A stretch of 64,000 nt of DNA from positions 1 through 64,000 of the forward strand of contig PWMQ01000101.1 of assembly GCA_003558125.1 (NCBI GenBank), written 5' to 3'. Below the pieces are notes generated by a model. That model was not told the DNA's origin. It saw nothing but the letters and a program-made list of their open reading frames with translations, and searched no databases. This document shows, piece after piece, positions 48,795-63,063 of this stretch (position 1 is the first letter of the stretch; each line of letters starts with the position of its first letter). The DNA is from Natronospira sp. (GTDB lineage Bacteria; Pseudomonadota; Gammaproteobacteria; Natronospirales; Natronospiraceae). The translations under genes and the position numbers were made by a program.

Positions 48795-49481
48795 TCAGGT
48801 GAGGTCGTCGTAGGCGCAGAATTCGCGCAGGGCGGGGATATCGGAAAGGACAATCAGACGACCACGCGACTGGACACCGCTGCTTTGCAAGCGGGAAAAG
48901 GCGCGGGAAAGGTTCTCCGGGGTCATGCCAAGCCGCCGTGCAAGCATGCCTCGCTGTTCGGGCAGTTCGATCTCATCGTGCTTGCGGTCTGTGTCGGCAA
49001 GGCTGAGAAGGTAGGATCCCAGCCGCTGCGGAGCGGACCGAAGTTTGAGATCTTTTACCTGGCGGATCATGAGTCGCCAGTGACGGCCCAGCTCCCGAGC
49101 AACAGCAAGGGATAGGCTCTGTTCCCGTTCCATCACCTCTCTGAAGCGGTTAGCCGGAATCATGAGGATTCTTGAATCCTCCACGGTCTTGGCCGACATC
49201 AGGAAAGGCAATTCAAGGATAACCGCGGGTATGATGAAGACGTCATCGGTCTGAAAGAATTCTACGACGGTTTCATCCTTGTGGTCTGAACTCCCCACGA
49301 GAGCAACCCGGCCTTCGAGAACTATCCTCAGGAAGCGGGCATCCTCACCCTGTCGAAAAAGGGTAGTGCCGGCGGGCAGCTCCAGTTCGAGCGAGTCCTC
49401 CAGTAGCTCGTTTCGAGCGCTCTCCGGGAGGGGGCCCAGGACAGGGTTTTTCTCGAGTTGCTCCAGGTCCGCCTTTTGCAT
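48795..49481 (-). CDS. Crp/Fnr-family regulator, Dnr-like
   Basis: A 228-residue protein with a cyclic-nucleotide-like beta-barrel sensor (about 20-120), a dimer helix and a winged helix. The recognition helix MTPENLSRAFSRLQ has the E-xx-SR residues that read TTGAT half-sites. There are no N-terminal cysteines (the only Cys is in EFCAYDD at the C-terminus), so it cannot bind an Fnr-type 4Fe-4S cluster and resembles Dnr/Nnr proteins that sense NO or redox through heme. It is third in the hemerythrin-DGC-dnr operon, 6 bp after the DGC gene, and that operon has a Dnr-type box in front of it. Autoregulation is therefore likely. Confidence 0.9.
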   Translation of the reverse strand: MQKADLEQLEKNPVLGPLPESARNELLEDSLELELPAGTTLFRQGEDARFLRIVLEGRVALVGSSDHKDETVVEFFQTDDVFIIPAVILELPFLMSAKTVEDSRILMIPANRFREVMEREQSLSLAVARELGRHWRLMIRQVKDLKLRSAPQRLGSYLLSLADTDRKHDEIELPEQRGMLARRLGMTPENLSRAFSRLQSSGVQSRGRLIVLSDIPALREFCAYDDLT

Positions 49482-49487
49482 TGCCTT

Positions 49488-49868
49488 TTAGTCTCCCAAC
49501 TGACGGGCCAGGCTGGCCATCTCGGAATATAGTCTACTGGCATCGACGGGATCAAAATCTTTTCCGTAACGCTTCTTGACCCCGAATTCTGACAGTACCA
49601 CATGTTTTGACGGTGACACGTCCCGTGTCTCGAGGCAGGCCTTGGTGCATGCCAGAGGGCAGCCATCAATCGCCAGAATGGGACGGCCTGCTTGAGCTGT
49701 CTTCACCAGCTTGGGCACATTGCCTCCGACCCCGGCAATACAAGACATTTCCGCCTCGCCAGCCCGGTCCAGGCGTAGGGCCAGCTCATTGGACAGCTGG
49801 GCAGCACTGGAGCAGCCGGAACAGGAATAGACCAGTGGCAGCTCCCCTTTGTGACGGCCGTGACTCAT
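49488..49868 (-). CDS. DGC-domain (putative zinc-binding) protein
   Basis: A 126-residue protein with Cys groups YSCSGCSS, MSCIAGVGG and DGCPLACTKACLE; the central DGC triplet names the family. The conserved cysteines suggest zinc or a metal cluster. Family members frequently sit near nitrate or denitrification genes and Crp/Fnr regulators, but no function has been shown that I know of. The start overlaps the hemerythrin gene stop by 4 bp (ATGA), and dnr follows after 6 bp. Such tight packing suggests that the three proteins act in one NO/O2 response. Confidence 0.85.
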   Translation of the reverse strand: MSHGRHKGELPLVYSCSGCSSAAQLSNELALRLDRAGEAEMSCIAGVGGNVPKLVKTAQAGRPILAIDGCPLACTKACLETRDVSPSKHVVLSEFGVKKRYGKDFDPVDASRLYSEMASLARQLGD

Positions 49869-50317
49869 GAGGCCTCCCGCTGATCGTGGGCGAGGAGGCG
49901 ATCCAGTCCGGAGCGAATCCGCTGGGCGGATTCCTCATCCATCAGCTTCTCCAGGATGGGGAATGCCTCTCGCTCCTCTCGCCGTACATGGTCGATAAGC
50001 ACATGGCCCAGTGCGTCCAGGCGAACCCGGTCCTGCCTGGAAGGGTCCTCCAGGACGACTCGCATGGCGTCGTGTTCCCGGTCAAGTTGCTCTACCAGCT
50101 CGTGTTGCCCCAGGCCTCTCAGCAGCGGGAAGATAACATCTTCCTCGGCTCGAAAATGGGCTGCCATCTCTTCATGCCAGAAGCGACTGAGCTGTCGCCA
50201 GACTTCGGAAATATTCCGTTCCACCCGGCTCGATGCTGCCTGTTTCGCATCACGGGCAAGTTTGAGGGCCACATTGTGTTCCCGGGAAAGGGGTCTCAGT
50301 TCAGGACTTCTTTTCAT
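49865..50317 (-). CDS. Hemerythrin HHE domain protein
   Basis: A 150-residue four-helix protein from ATG at 50317, preceded by GGAGC; an ATG ten codons upstream is also possible. His and Glu ligands of a di-iron site are visible: REHNVAL (helix 1), WHEEMAAHFRAEEDVIFP (helix 2), DREHDAMR (helix 3) and LIDHVRREEREAFPIL (helix 4). Bacterial hemerythrins of this kind bind O2 or repair iron-sulfur centres damaged by NO (Dnr/YtfE type). It opens the hemerythrin-DGC-dnr operon and has a Dnr-type box at about -41 of its predicted promoter. Confidence 0.9.
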   Translation of the reverse strand: MKRSPELRPLSREHNVALKLARDAKQAASSRVERNISEVWRQLSRFWHEEMAAHFRAEEDVIFPLLRGLGQHELVEQLDREHDAMRVVLEDPSRQDRVRLDALGHVLIDHVRREEREAFPILEKLMDEESAQRIRSGLDRLLAHDQREAS

Positions 50318-50366
50318 CCAGCCTTGCGCTCCTGCTGTTGCCAGCATTGTGTTTCCCAGCTTCCCA

Positions 50367-50512: not shown

Positions 50513-50989
50513 ATGAAACAGATAAGGTCCATACGTTCCCCCGTTGGGGGCAGGTCACTGAGCAGTCTGCTCGCGATCCCTGCCCGATTTACACCATTGC
50601 GTTGCCAGGCCCTGTTGGTGGAGCCACTGCTCCAGCAGGTTTTCGCCGATCGAATCGAGGATGGAGATCTGGATTTCCTCAGTCGGGAGGTCGTGGAAAT
50701 CGCCATTACGGATATTGGCCTGCACTGGTTCCTGACTCTCGAAGATGGGCGCCTCAGATTGATTCCCCGGGGCCGACCCGCGGTAACGGTGGCTGGCGGC
50801 TTGCCCGAGTTCCTGCTACTGGCCAGTCGAAGAGAAGATCCGGATACCTTGTTCTTCGAACGTCGTATCACCGTGGAGGGGGATACTGAACTGGGTTTGC
50901 TGGTCAAGAATCTGCTTGACTCCATAGAACTGACTGCTCTGCCGCCCCTGCTAAGGCGTGCCGTGGAAGCAGGGGCGTCCTGGGCTTAG
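50513..50989 (+). CDS. ubiT: Anaerobic ubiquinone biosynthesis accessory factor UbiT (SCP2 domain)
   Basis: A 158-residue protein from ATG at 50513 (MKQIRSIRSPVGGRSLSSLLAIPARFTPLRCQALLVEPLLQQVFADRIEDGDLDFL). Residues 35-150 form an SCP2 lipid-binding domain (GLHWFLTLEDGRLRLIPRGRPAVTVAGG, FFERRITVEGDTELGLLVKNLLDSIE). UbiT of E. coli (YhbT) binds ubiquinone precursors in O2-independent synthesis and works with UbiU and UbiV, both encoded 0.3-2.8 kb away. The chorismate mutase gene starts 2 bp after its stop. A weak Shine-Dalgarno precedes the ATG. Confidence 0.9.
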   Translation: MKQIRSIRSPVGGRSLSSLLAIPARFTPLRCQALLVEPLLQQVFADRIEDGDLDFLSREVVEIAITDIGLHWFLTLEDGRLRLIPRGRPAVTVAGGLPEFLLLASRREDPDTLFFERRITVEGDTELGLLVKNLLDSIELTALPPLLRRAVEAGASWA

Positions 50990-50991
50990 CG

Positions 50992-51312
50992 ATGGACGCC
51001 GCTGCTGGTCTGTCTCGAAGCCGGAAAGCCATCGATGAAATAGACCGGGAGATCCTTCAACTGCTGGCCCGGCGGACAGAAATCGTCAGTGACCTGGCCG
51101 TTTACAAGCAAGCCTTGGGTCTACCCGTTCGTGTGCCGGAGCGAGAGCTAGAGAAAACGTCTGGTTTTCGTCAGCAGGCTGCAGCCCTTGGCCTGGACCG
51201 TGATTGGGCGGAACAGTTTCTGCGCATGATCATGGGGGCTTCTCGTCAGCTCCAGAGCCGTCATTTGCTCAGATGCCACCCACACAACAGCTTCAAGGGC
51301 AGCGCAAGGTAA
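50992..51312 (+). CDS. AroQ-type chorismate mutase in the ubiT operon
   Basis: A 106-residue helical protein of the monofunctional AroQ class. By alignment with the E. coli P-protein mutase domain, the active-site residues are present: Arg in SRKAIDEID, Arg in LLARRTE, Lys in YKQAL, Arg-Glu in PVRVPERE and Gln in GASRQLQS. It has no signal peptide, so it acts in the cytoplasm. It starts 2 bp after the ubiT stop, so translation is coupled. Chorismate is also the starting point of ubiquinone (through UbiC), so its placement here is unusual. The C-terminal tail HLLRCHPHNSFKGSAR is specific to this copy. Confidence 0.88.
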   Translation: MDAAAGLSRSRKAIDEIDREILQLLARRTEIVSDLAVYKQALGLPVRVPERELEKTSGFRQQAAALGLDRDWAEQFLRMIMGASRQLQSRHLLRCHPHNSFKGSAR

Positions 51313-51322
51313 TCAGAGGGTT

Positions 51323-52201
51323 CTACGCTGTAACGCTTTCCAGCATGCCGGGCTCTTCCATCCAGTAGCCATCCGCAGGTGGTGCGATCAGCCATTCCCG
51401 CTCCAATTGCATTGGTGCCGAGCCGGCAATGGCCTCGGCCCAGCGATGGACAATTTTGTTCATGTCCCGGGACTGAGGGCTGAGCCGGACCGTGTTCACA
51501 CCCATGCGATTCATGATCGGCAGGTGTCGGATCAGGTTCACGCAGTGATGGGACTGGGTCTGGATGCCATTGATGACAAGGAAGTCTTCACCTTCCTGAG
51601 TTTTCATGGCTAGTCCATCCGGGTAGGCTTTGCATACAAAACCACAGTCATCCTTGGGTCGGTTTTGGGCGCGAGCCGCGAAACAGCGGGCCGACCAGGC
51701 CAATGGCATGCGGCCAAAGGCAAAGACTTCCGTTTCGATCCCAAGGTCTGCCGAAAGCAGCGCCTGCAACTGCCGGGCGGGCATCTCCAGGGGCGGGACC
51801 CAGGCAAACATGCCGGCACGCTTGAGCACATCAATGGCCGGGCGATTGTAGAGGTTGAGACTGCTACCGCCGACGAAGGCCAGCCCCTTTTCCTCGGCGA
51901 CCGACACGGCTGAATAATCATTCGCCTCGATTTGCAGGCCACGATCACAGAGGCGCTTCAAGGCGCCGGCTTCGGAACGAGCCTCGATCAGGGTGAGTGA
52001 AGAGAGCAGAACTTCCTTGCCCGCATCAATCAGCGCCGCGCCGATCTCCAGCCAATCATCCGCCCGTAACTCCCGACGCTTGGAACAGACGGTTTCGCCG
52101 AGATAAACCCGATCCACCGGCCAGTCCCGGACCTGCTGATAGAAATCCAGCACCTCATTACGCGGCCAAAAATACAACACCGGCCCCAAACTGATACGCA
52201 T
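51323..52201 (-). CDS. ubiV: Anaerobic ubiquinone hydroxylation factor UbiV (U32 family)
   Basis: A 292-residue U32-family protein. Cysteine at residue 39 (GETVCSKRREL) and three later cysteines in ARCFAARAQNRPKDDCGFVCKAYP have the spacing of the 4Fe-4S ligands of E. coli UbiV (C39, C180, C193, C197). UbiU-UbiV form the complex that hydroxylates ubiquinone rings without oxygen, using prephenate as the hydroxyl donor in E. coli. The gene lies 69 bp after ubiU on the same strand, so they form one unit. It is convergent with the chorismate mutase gene, with 10 bp between the stops. Confidence 0.93.
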   Translation of the reverse strand: MRISLGPVLYFWPRNEVLDFYQQVRDWPVDRVYLGETVCSKRRELRADDWLEIGAALIDAGKEVLLSSLTLIEARSEAGALKRLCDRGLQIEANDYSAVSVAEEKGLAFVGGSSLNLYNRPAIDVLKRAGMFAWVPPLEMPARQLQALLSADLGIETEVFAFGRMPLAWSARCFAARAQNRPKDDCGFVCKAYPDGLAMKTQEGEDFLVINGIQTQSHHCVNLIRHLPIMNRMGVNTVRLSPQSRDMNKIVHRWAEAIAGSAPMQLEREWLIAPPADGYWMEEPGMLESVTA

Positions 52202-52270: not shown

Positions 52271-53266
52271 CTATTGCCATGTCCTTGCATAAGCCCCCAG
52301 CGTCGTCTGACTGCCTTCCGACAGCCGGGAGAGGGTCGCTTGGCCTTCGGCATCGGGCTGGTAGCGGGCCGGGTTCCGGTCCACCGCATCCAGCAGACGG
52401 CGCCAGACGCGAGTGACCGCCGCCACATAGGCGGGACTGCGTTGTCGGCCTTCGATTTTCACTGCCGAAATCCCCATGGCTTTCAATTCCGGTAGCAGCT
52501 CGGCGGTATTCAGGCTGGTGGGTGCTTCAAGGGCGTGGTGGCGGTGGCCCTCGGTGTAAAAGCGTCCCTTGCAGAGTGTCGGGTAGCCTGCCCGCTCCTG
52601 GGGCTGGAAACGATCAATCAACTTGCCATTGAGACGGGATTCCAGTATCTCGCCTTTCTCCTCCCAGCGAACGTGAGAGGCCGGTGAGCAGACCCCGGCG
52701 GTATTGGGGGACTGACCGGTGACATAGGACGACAGCTGGCAGCGCCCCTCGGCCATGATGCAGAGACTGCCGAAGGCAAAGACCTCAAGCTCGACGGGAC
52801 TGTCTTCGGCGAGGGCACGCACCTGCTGGACAGCAAGTACCCGTGGCAGAACAGCCCGGCGGATACCGAAATGGCGGTAATAGAAGTCCAGGGCTTCTCG
52901 TGTGGTTGCCGATGCCTGGACCGAGAGATGACGGGGCAGGTCGGGATGTTGTCGCGCGGCGTAATCCAGTACCCCGGTATCCGCCATGATGAGTGCATCA
53001 GCGCCCAGGTCCGCGGCCTGGTCCACGGCCGACTGCCAGCGCTCGACGCCGTCGGCGTGGGCATAGGTGTTGATGGCCATGTAGACCGAGGCGCCACGGT
53101 CATGGGCATAGCGCACCGCCTCGGCGATACGTTTGGGCGTGAAATTGAGGCCGGCAAAATGGCGGGCGTTGGTGGCGTCCTTCAGGCCCAGATAGACCAC
53201 ATCAGCGCCTTCATCCACCGCGGACTTCAGGGCGGGCAAGCTACCCGCCGGACAGACCAGGTCCAT
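52271..53266 (-). CDS. ubiU: Anaerobic ubiquinone hydroxylation factor UbiU (U32 family)
   Basis: A 331-residue U32-family protein starting MDLVCPAGSLPALKSAVDEGADVVYLGLKDATNARHFAGLNF. The U32 signature is ELEVFAFGSLCIMAEGRCQLSSYVTGQSPNTAGVCSPA, containing three cluster-ligand cysteines; the fourth is in TLCKGRFY. This is the pattern of E. coli UbiU (C169, C176, C193, C232). It forms a complex with UbiV. It is first in the ubiUV operon and has an Fnr/Dnr-type box and promoter upstream, consistent with anaerobic induction. Confidence 0.94.
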   Translation of the reverse strand: MDLVCPAGSLPALKSAVDEGADVVYLGLKDATNARHFAGLNFTPKRIAEAVRYAHDRGASVYMAINTYAHADGVERWQSAVDQAADLGADALIMADTGVLDYAARQHPDLPRHLSVQASATTREALDFYYRHFGIRRAVLPRVLAVQQVRALAEDSPVELEVFAFGSLCIMAEGRCQLSSYVTGQSPNTAGVCSPASHVRWEEKGEILESRLNGKLIDRFQPQERAGYPTLCKGRFYTEGHRHHALEAPTSLNTAELLPELKAMGISAVKIEGRQRSPAYVAAVTRVWRRLLDAVDRNPARYQPDAEGQATLSRLSEGSQTTLGAYARTWQ

Positions 53267-53509: not shown

Positions 53510-54025
53510 TCAGACCTCGTCGGCGCCGAACAGCCCCACGCGGAGGTTCTTGGCGGTATAGATGACTTCACCGTCCACGCTCATCTGGCCATCGGCGATG
53601 GCCATCTTGAGGCCACGGCGAATTACTCGCTTCATGTCGATGCGGTATTCGACCTGCTTCGCCTCGGGCATCACCTGGCCGGTGAACTTCACCTCACCCA
53701 CGCCAAGGGCACGGCCCCGACCGGGGTTGCCTTCCCAGACCAGATAAAAGCCCACCAGCTGCCACAGGGCGTCCAGGCCGAGGCAGCCGGGCATGACCGG
53801 GTCGTCCTTGAAGTGGCATTGGAAGAACCAGAGGTCCGGTTTGATGTTCAGGGTCGCGCGGATGATGCCCTTGCCATATTCCCCGCCCTCGTCACGGATC
53901 TCGTCGATCCGGTCGAACATGAGCATGGGCGGAAGGGGGAGGCGGCCGTTGCCCGGCCCGAACATTTTTCCTTCAGCACATTCAATGAGCTGGTCGTAAT
54001 CAAGACTATTGGGGCGATTGCTCAT
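53510..54025 (-). CDS. fabA: 3-hydroxydecanoyl-ACP dehydratase/isomerase
   Basis: A 171-residue FabA. ATG at 54025 is chosen; a GTG three codons upstream is in frame. The catalytic His is at 71 ([17 protein letters not shown]) and Asp at 85 (GLDALWQL), equal to His70 and Asp84 of E. coli FabA. It dehydrates 3-hydroxydecanoyl-ACP and isomerises the product to the cis-3 form, the entry to unsaturated fatty acids without oxygen. Its usual partner fabB is not in the window. Its position between ubiU and nsrR and an Fnr-like box upstream suggest oxygen-linked control, which is weakly supported. Confidence 0.95.
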
Positions 54026-54095
54026 GGGTCTCACTCTTAATTAGGGCGGCGGCTATGGTCGCCAAATCTGGCCACCGCGTCAATTCCGGCTGGCC

Positions 54096-60910: not shown

Positions 60911-60952
60911 ATTCTTCCTTGTTCCCGGGGCCGCTGCATTGATCCGCATCAA
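60911..60952 (-). promoter_or_regulatory. Fnr/Dnr-type promoter of nadA
   Basis: TTGATCCGCATCAA (60939-60952) is a perfect consensus. On the minus strand a -10-like AAGAAT (60916-60911) lies 22 bp away, again placing the box centre near -41.5. The nadA start codon is 57 bp beyond the -10. Confidence 0.7.
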
Positions 60953-63049: not shown

Positions 63050-63063
63050 TTGATAACGATCAA
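63050..63063 (+). promoter_or_regulatory. Fnr/Dnr box upstream of the uspE-like gene
   Basis: TTGATAACGATCAA is a perfect consensus. On the plus strand a weak -10-like TAGGCT (63085-63090) lies 21 bp beyond it, close to the 22-bp spacing in the other promoters. The uspE-like start is 116 bp away. Confidence 0.65.

Follow-up and report, generated by a model that had tools for sequence, protein, structure and literature searches.

A chorismate mutase gene adjoining ubiT as a candidate dedicated prephenate source for O2-independent ubiquinone synthesis

The stretch of Natronospira sp. (family Natronospiraceae) DNA that was analysed (64,000 nucleotides of contig PWMQ01000101.1, hereafter the window) was found to possess a gene for an AroQ-type chorismate mutase (CM) lying between ubiT and the ubiVU genes (Table 1). 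The product of this gene is most probably a chorismate mutase dedicated to O2-independent ubiquinone synthesis, which would supply prephenate to UbiUV, a reading that draws on gene content and predicted structure. UbiUV are known to hydroxylate without O2 (Arias-Cartin et al., 2023; PMC10470549), with the hydroxyl in E. coli reported to come from prephenate (Ferizhendi et al., 2024, as cited in PMC11574389), and hydroxylation by TrhP and RlhA is likewise prephenate-dependent (PMC6599085). The O2-independent pathway, UbiTUV and AroQ mutases are known already, while a CM encoded beside ubiTUV and its fusion to UbiT appear to be new. No publication on either was found in the literature searched, in which Ferizhendi et al. 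(2024) was represented by a citing paper only, and a search of a Pseudomonadota-wide ubiTUV survey (PMC11707229) found mention of neither prephenate nor a fusion.

Table 1. Features of the ubiT-CM locus and associated FNR-type boxes in the window.
Feature	Position	Strand	Description
FNR/Anr-type box TTGATATGTATCAA	50395..50408	+	Perfect match, 105 bp upstream of ubiT start
ubiT	50513..50989	+	ATG to stop; SCP2-domain accessory factor, O2-independent ubiquinone synthesis
AroQ-type chorismate mutase (CM), 106 aa	50992..51312	+	ATG to stop; PF01817; proposed dedicated prephenate supplier
ubiV	51323..52201	-	U32 Fe-S protein, O2-independent ubiquinone hydroxylation; NF047965 369.4 bits, cut-off 275
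ubiU	52271..53266	-	U32 Fe-S partner of UbiV; NF047963 553.4 bits, cut-off 440
FNR-like box TTGACCCTCATCAA	53326..53339		1 mismatch, 60 bp upstream of ubiU

The window UbiT passed the cut-off of the UbiT equivalog NF047962 (133.6 bits vs. 46.9) and scored 61.3 bits against the Pfam profile PF02036. The first-pass annotation of this DNA had placed the CM gene directly behind ubiT and converging on ubiVU, and both points were borne out: ubiT ends at 50989 and the CM gene begins at 50992, leaving a gap of 2 bp, ubiV and ubiU pass their equivalog cut-offs, and the stop codons of the CM gene and ubiV lie 10 bp apart on opposite strands. A search of the interval between CM and ubiV for a terminator found none. 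The minus side of ubiT holds an HHE hemerythrin-like gene, a DGC-domain gene, a Crp/FNR-family regulator (FtrB-like, with a score just below the cut-off of the FtrB model), two NarK-type transporters and narGHJI. The genomic setting of the locus is nitrate respiration, a condition needing anaerobic ubiquinone (PMC10470549). The block of HHE hemerythrin-like, DGC-domain and FtrB-like genes adjoining ubiT/CM (48795-50347) is kept across the genus, and DGC-domain proteins were also seen upstream of many of the CM-UbiT fusions described below (L220, L228, L247). Past ubiU lie fabA and then an Rrf2/NsrR-like regulator. The fabA gene (53510-54034 in the window) adjoins ubiU, ubiT or CM in many loci (L060, L064, L066, L076, L097, L125, L277), and its adjacency was also seen at loci without CM; through this neighbourhood, the O2-independent synthesis of unsaturated fatty acids may be linked to anaerobic ubiquinone.

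In addition to the two boxes of Table 1, a one-mismatch FNR box was identified 62 bp upstream of fabA and a perfect one upstream of narK. In total, ten matches with at most one mismatch occur in the window, compared with 1.7 expected from shuffled sequence. Two further perfect boxes were seen at 60939-60952 and 63050-63063, close to nadA and to an incomplete gene with which the window ends. Among the 12 ubiT loci identified in the order Natronospirales, to which the window belongs, the ubiT/CM promoter region holds an FNR box in eight, and the same was found at L074 and L076.

The window CM scored 76 bits against the Pfam CM_2 profile (PF01817; cut-off 27), and its AlphaFold model is a three-helix AroQ protein with a pLDDT of 94.9. 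The best PDB match of the model was the E. coli chorismate mutase (EcCM) structure 1ECM (TM 0.90-0.91, 0.9 A), at a sequence identity of 26%; isochorismate-pyruvate lyase PchB was also among the PDB matches. None of the NCBIfam chorismate mutase equivalogs reached its cut-off with the window protein, the best score being 60.8 bits vs. 273. It had been claimed initially that all expected active-site residues are present; this holds for the equivalents of R11, R28, K39, R51, E52, S84 and Q88 (EcCM numbering), but the equivalent of Asp48 is a Val. On the basis of fold and residues, the window CM is predicted to convert chorismate to prephenate.

Most other stand-alone Natronospirales CMs are without equivalents of both Gln88 and Asp48, and in several of the copies without Gln88 the last helix seems to stop early. 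At the C-termini of the CMs of L060-L073 a motif LLRQ[FY]xxPG[DN] often closes the last helix, with the Gln88 equivalent missing. Catalysis by the copies without Gln88 could consequently be weak, slow or dependent on a partner. Between the window and its sister genome G001 the identity of the CMs is only 30%, compared with 78% for UbiT, and this fast divergence relative to UbiT may reflect either weak constraint or gene replacement. The weakly resolved CM tree favours neither vertical inheritance nor replacement of the window CM.

The pairing of CM with ubiT is not peculiar to one strain, being present in the order throughout the genomes with ubiT, in two further families and, as a fusion, in family f16. 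Nineteen genomes of the order were surveyed, several of them incomplete assemblies. UbiT was above cut-off in 12 of these and a CM_2 gene adjoins ubiT in every one (12/12), whereas none of the seven genomes without ubiT has a CM_2 match (Fisher p = 2e-5 for co-occurrence, kinship ignored). The same division was observed among genomes at least 90% complete, with CM_2 in 7/7 with ubiT vs. 0/3 without it. Joint loss of CM and ubiTUV could be the result of a single deletion of the linked cluster. The orientation of the CM gene varies, as it is divergent from ubiT in sister genomes and lies downstream on the same strand in the window.

On the scale of the class, 95 of 97 ubiT loci were each searched for CM. 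Neighbouring CM genes were found at eight of the 95 loci, distributed over six families, compared with approximately 0.2 loci expected, and the adjacency of CM and ubiT is therefore far above chance. Outside the order they comprise ubiT-CM-fabA in tandem in G165 (L076), CM and ubiT divergent in G250 (L133), and the fusion in family f16. On a partly resolved UbiU tree the CM-linked lineages do not cluster, suggesting that the linkage arose or survived several times. Approximately 87 of the 95 loci are without a CM nearby, which indicates that a dedicated CM is not needed for UbiUV in general. The UbiT scan of named genomes mostly returned matches in Enterobacterales, Vibrionales, Aeromonas and Pseudomonas, and L140, a Natronospiraceae locus, is the only one of these named-genome matches where a CM lies within 10 kb of ubiT. 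In the class-wide CM_2 profile search, the matches listed, which are the strongest ones, were of the PheA type.

The closest association of the two proteins was found in f16, a second, large gammaproteobacterial family, in which UbiT was above cut-off in 47 of 198 genomes. Contig ends truncate two loci, which were excluded, among them L244, which holds the C-terminal part of a CM domain. In 44 of the 45 assessable genomes CM_2 and UbiT are encoded in one uninterrupted frame, G485 being the sole unfused case. The C-terminal half of the fusion scored above the UbiT equivalog cut-off (116-121 bits), and in the AlphaFold model a linker of low confidence joins the three AroQ helices to the SCP2 domain. 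Only nine columns of the CM half are the same in 42 or more of the 44 sequences, and six of these are the catalytic positions R11, R28, K39, D48, R51 and E52 (43-44/44); Q88 is kept in 41/44. Judging from these columns, selection on the CM half appears to act on catalysis. A second CM_2 match is present in each of the f16 genomes G030 and G182. A tblastn search of plasmids with the CM-UbiT fusion matched the UbiT halves and nothing else.

The gene content of the order was inspected for other proteins that could make or use prephenate. Prephenate dehydratase was found in only two of the 19 genomes (G000 and G002), and two different ones (G005 and G009) have a true prephenate dehydrogenase. PDH_N matches of 20-35 bits occur in most genomes of the order and were rejected as too weak, being unlikely to represent true prephenate dehydrogenases. 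Both enzymes are missing from 15 of the 19 genomes, which are therefore probably auxotrophic for Phe and Tyr, as would suit bacteria that feed on peptides. The four genomes G000, G002, G005 and G009 are exactly those with a second CM, which is encoded beside the dehydratase (as a stand-alone gene) or beside the dehydrogenase (as a DAHP synthase-CM). In G005 (L061 1477-2658, L136) and G009 (L062, L137) prephenate dehydrogenase directly adjoins a DAHP synthase that has CM as its C-terminal domain, and this branch, which is without dehydratase, is tyrosine-only.

The remaining eight ubiT genomes have a single CM, always at ubiT, and neither dehydratase nor dehydrogenase. AroH-type CM was not detected in any of the 19 genomes. 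Chorismate synthase was found in 18 of them (the exception being a 52%-complete genome), and chorismate, the substrate of CM, can thus be made. Each of the 12 ubiT genomes encodes exactly two U32 proteins, UbiU and UbiV, and the other seven encode none, which implies that TrhP and RlhA are absent, and CmoA was above cut-off in 0/19. UbiUV are therefore the only prephenate consumer found in these eight genomes, and the dedication of CM to UbiUV is supported more strongly by this gene content than by adjacency. The supply of prephenate by CM to UbiUV, as suggested in the first-pass annotation, is accordingly supported as a reading of genomes in which gene content, adjacency and fusion agree. In the window genome, however, an amino-acid CM stands next to prephenate dehydratase as well, so that the ubiT-linked CM is not the sole prephenate source there and the effect of a knock-out might be masked.

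Three other explanations were considered. The gene could encode an ordinary monofunctional CM for Phe/Tyr synthesis which lies next to ubiT by chance, as AroQ domains are common and usually serve aromatic amino acids, and prephenate dehydratase is still present in the window genome. This reading is already disfavoured and we regard it as very improbable, since the ubiT-linked CM is kept in the eight genomes without either amino-acid enzyme, a separate CM stands beside the Phe or Tyr branch wherever that branch is retained, and order genomes without ubiTUV have no CM at all. The fusion in f16, where G030 and G182 have their further CM_2 match, argues in the same direction. It is barely conceivable that the prephenate made by CM serves RNA modification instead of UbiUV: TrhP, RlhA and CmoA are the remaining known prephenate users (PMC6599085), but the U32 search returned UbiU and UbiV only, and no genome of the order has CmoA above cut-off.

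Improbable, too, is the reading that the AroQ-fold protein is no longer a mutase here, having become a chorismate-pyruvate lyase which makes 4-hydroxybenzoate, or a structural or regulatory subunit of UbiT-UbiUV which binds chorismate or prephenate. AroQ folds have been reused before, as the match to PchB illustrates, and the Gln88 equivalent is missing from most stand-alone Natronospirales copies. However, Q88 is present in the window copy and the fusions preserve both it and the other catalytic positions almost without exception. Moreover, CM tracks only the O2-independent hydroxylases and not ubiquinone synthesis as such, in which the ring precursor step is already O2-independent. The remark in the first-pass annotation that chorismate feeds ubiquinone through UbiC is background and carries no weight in the case for the role of CM.

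A dedicated CM of the UbiUV pathway would operate as follows. At low O2, an FNR-type regulator acting at the observed boxes would turn on ubiT-CM and ubiUV together. CM, with its AroQ fold and catalytic residues, would turn chorismate into prephenate, which would then be the oxygen donor in the ring hydroxylations by UbiUV, as others have reported for E. coli, while UbiT, in keeping with the known role of its family, would present the lipid intermediate. Where CM and UbiT are fused, one protein may deliver both lipid substrate and oxygen donor, possibly by channelling. Such an enzyme would uncouple prephenate for quinone synthesis from Phe/Tyr synthesis, which has been lost in most members of the order. 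A tentative extension, which we consider possible though rather doubtful, is that CM-UbiT is a bifunctional delivery protein, its SCP2 half holding the polyprenyl ring intermediate and its AroQ half producing prephenate next to UbiUV, with lipid substrate and oxygen donor channelled together, and that the CMs without Gln88 are partner-activated mutases working only within a UbiT-UbiUV complex.

The role of prephenate as an organic oxygen donor is a recent claim based on E. coli genetics and labelling. Evolution appears to have repeated the test, in that bacteria without Phe/Tyr synthesis retain one CM, always at ubiT, and have none where ubiTUV is missing. The CM-ubiT pattern offers independent support for the prephenate donor hypothesis. 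It suggests that in bacteria with a ubiT-linked or fused CM this unusual oxygen donor is made on site, while the fusion suggests that UbiT is the meeting place of substrate and donor. Genomes with one mutase and one consumer would also be a clean system for probing the chemistry.

In E. coli, prephenate comes from PheA and TyrA through their CM domains, and the ubiTUV locus is not known to have a CM, whereas that of the window includes one. The same three proteins, encoded in a compact locus with boxes of FNR type ahead of ubiT and ubiU, are otherwise found in E. coli and P. aeruginosa (Pelosi et al., 2019, PMC6747719; Arias-Cartin et al., 2023, PMC10470549). The window CM resembles 1ECM and other AroQ mutases in fold and in most catalytic residues, but CM occurs here as a stand-alone gene or as the N-terminal domain of UbiT and not as a domain of PheA, TyrA or DAHP synthase. 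Those enzymes likewise join CM to a user or controller of its product, as the DAHP synthase-CM of G005 and G009 does, although the partner in f16 is a lipid-binding SCP2 quinone accessory factor and not an amino-acid enzyme. A fusion within a pathway has similarly been taken as functional evidence for the UbiT-UbiU protein of Zymomonas mobilis (PMC6747719); however, two known pathway proteins are joined there, while here UbiT is joined to a metabolic enzyme that the published pathway does not include.
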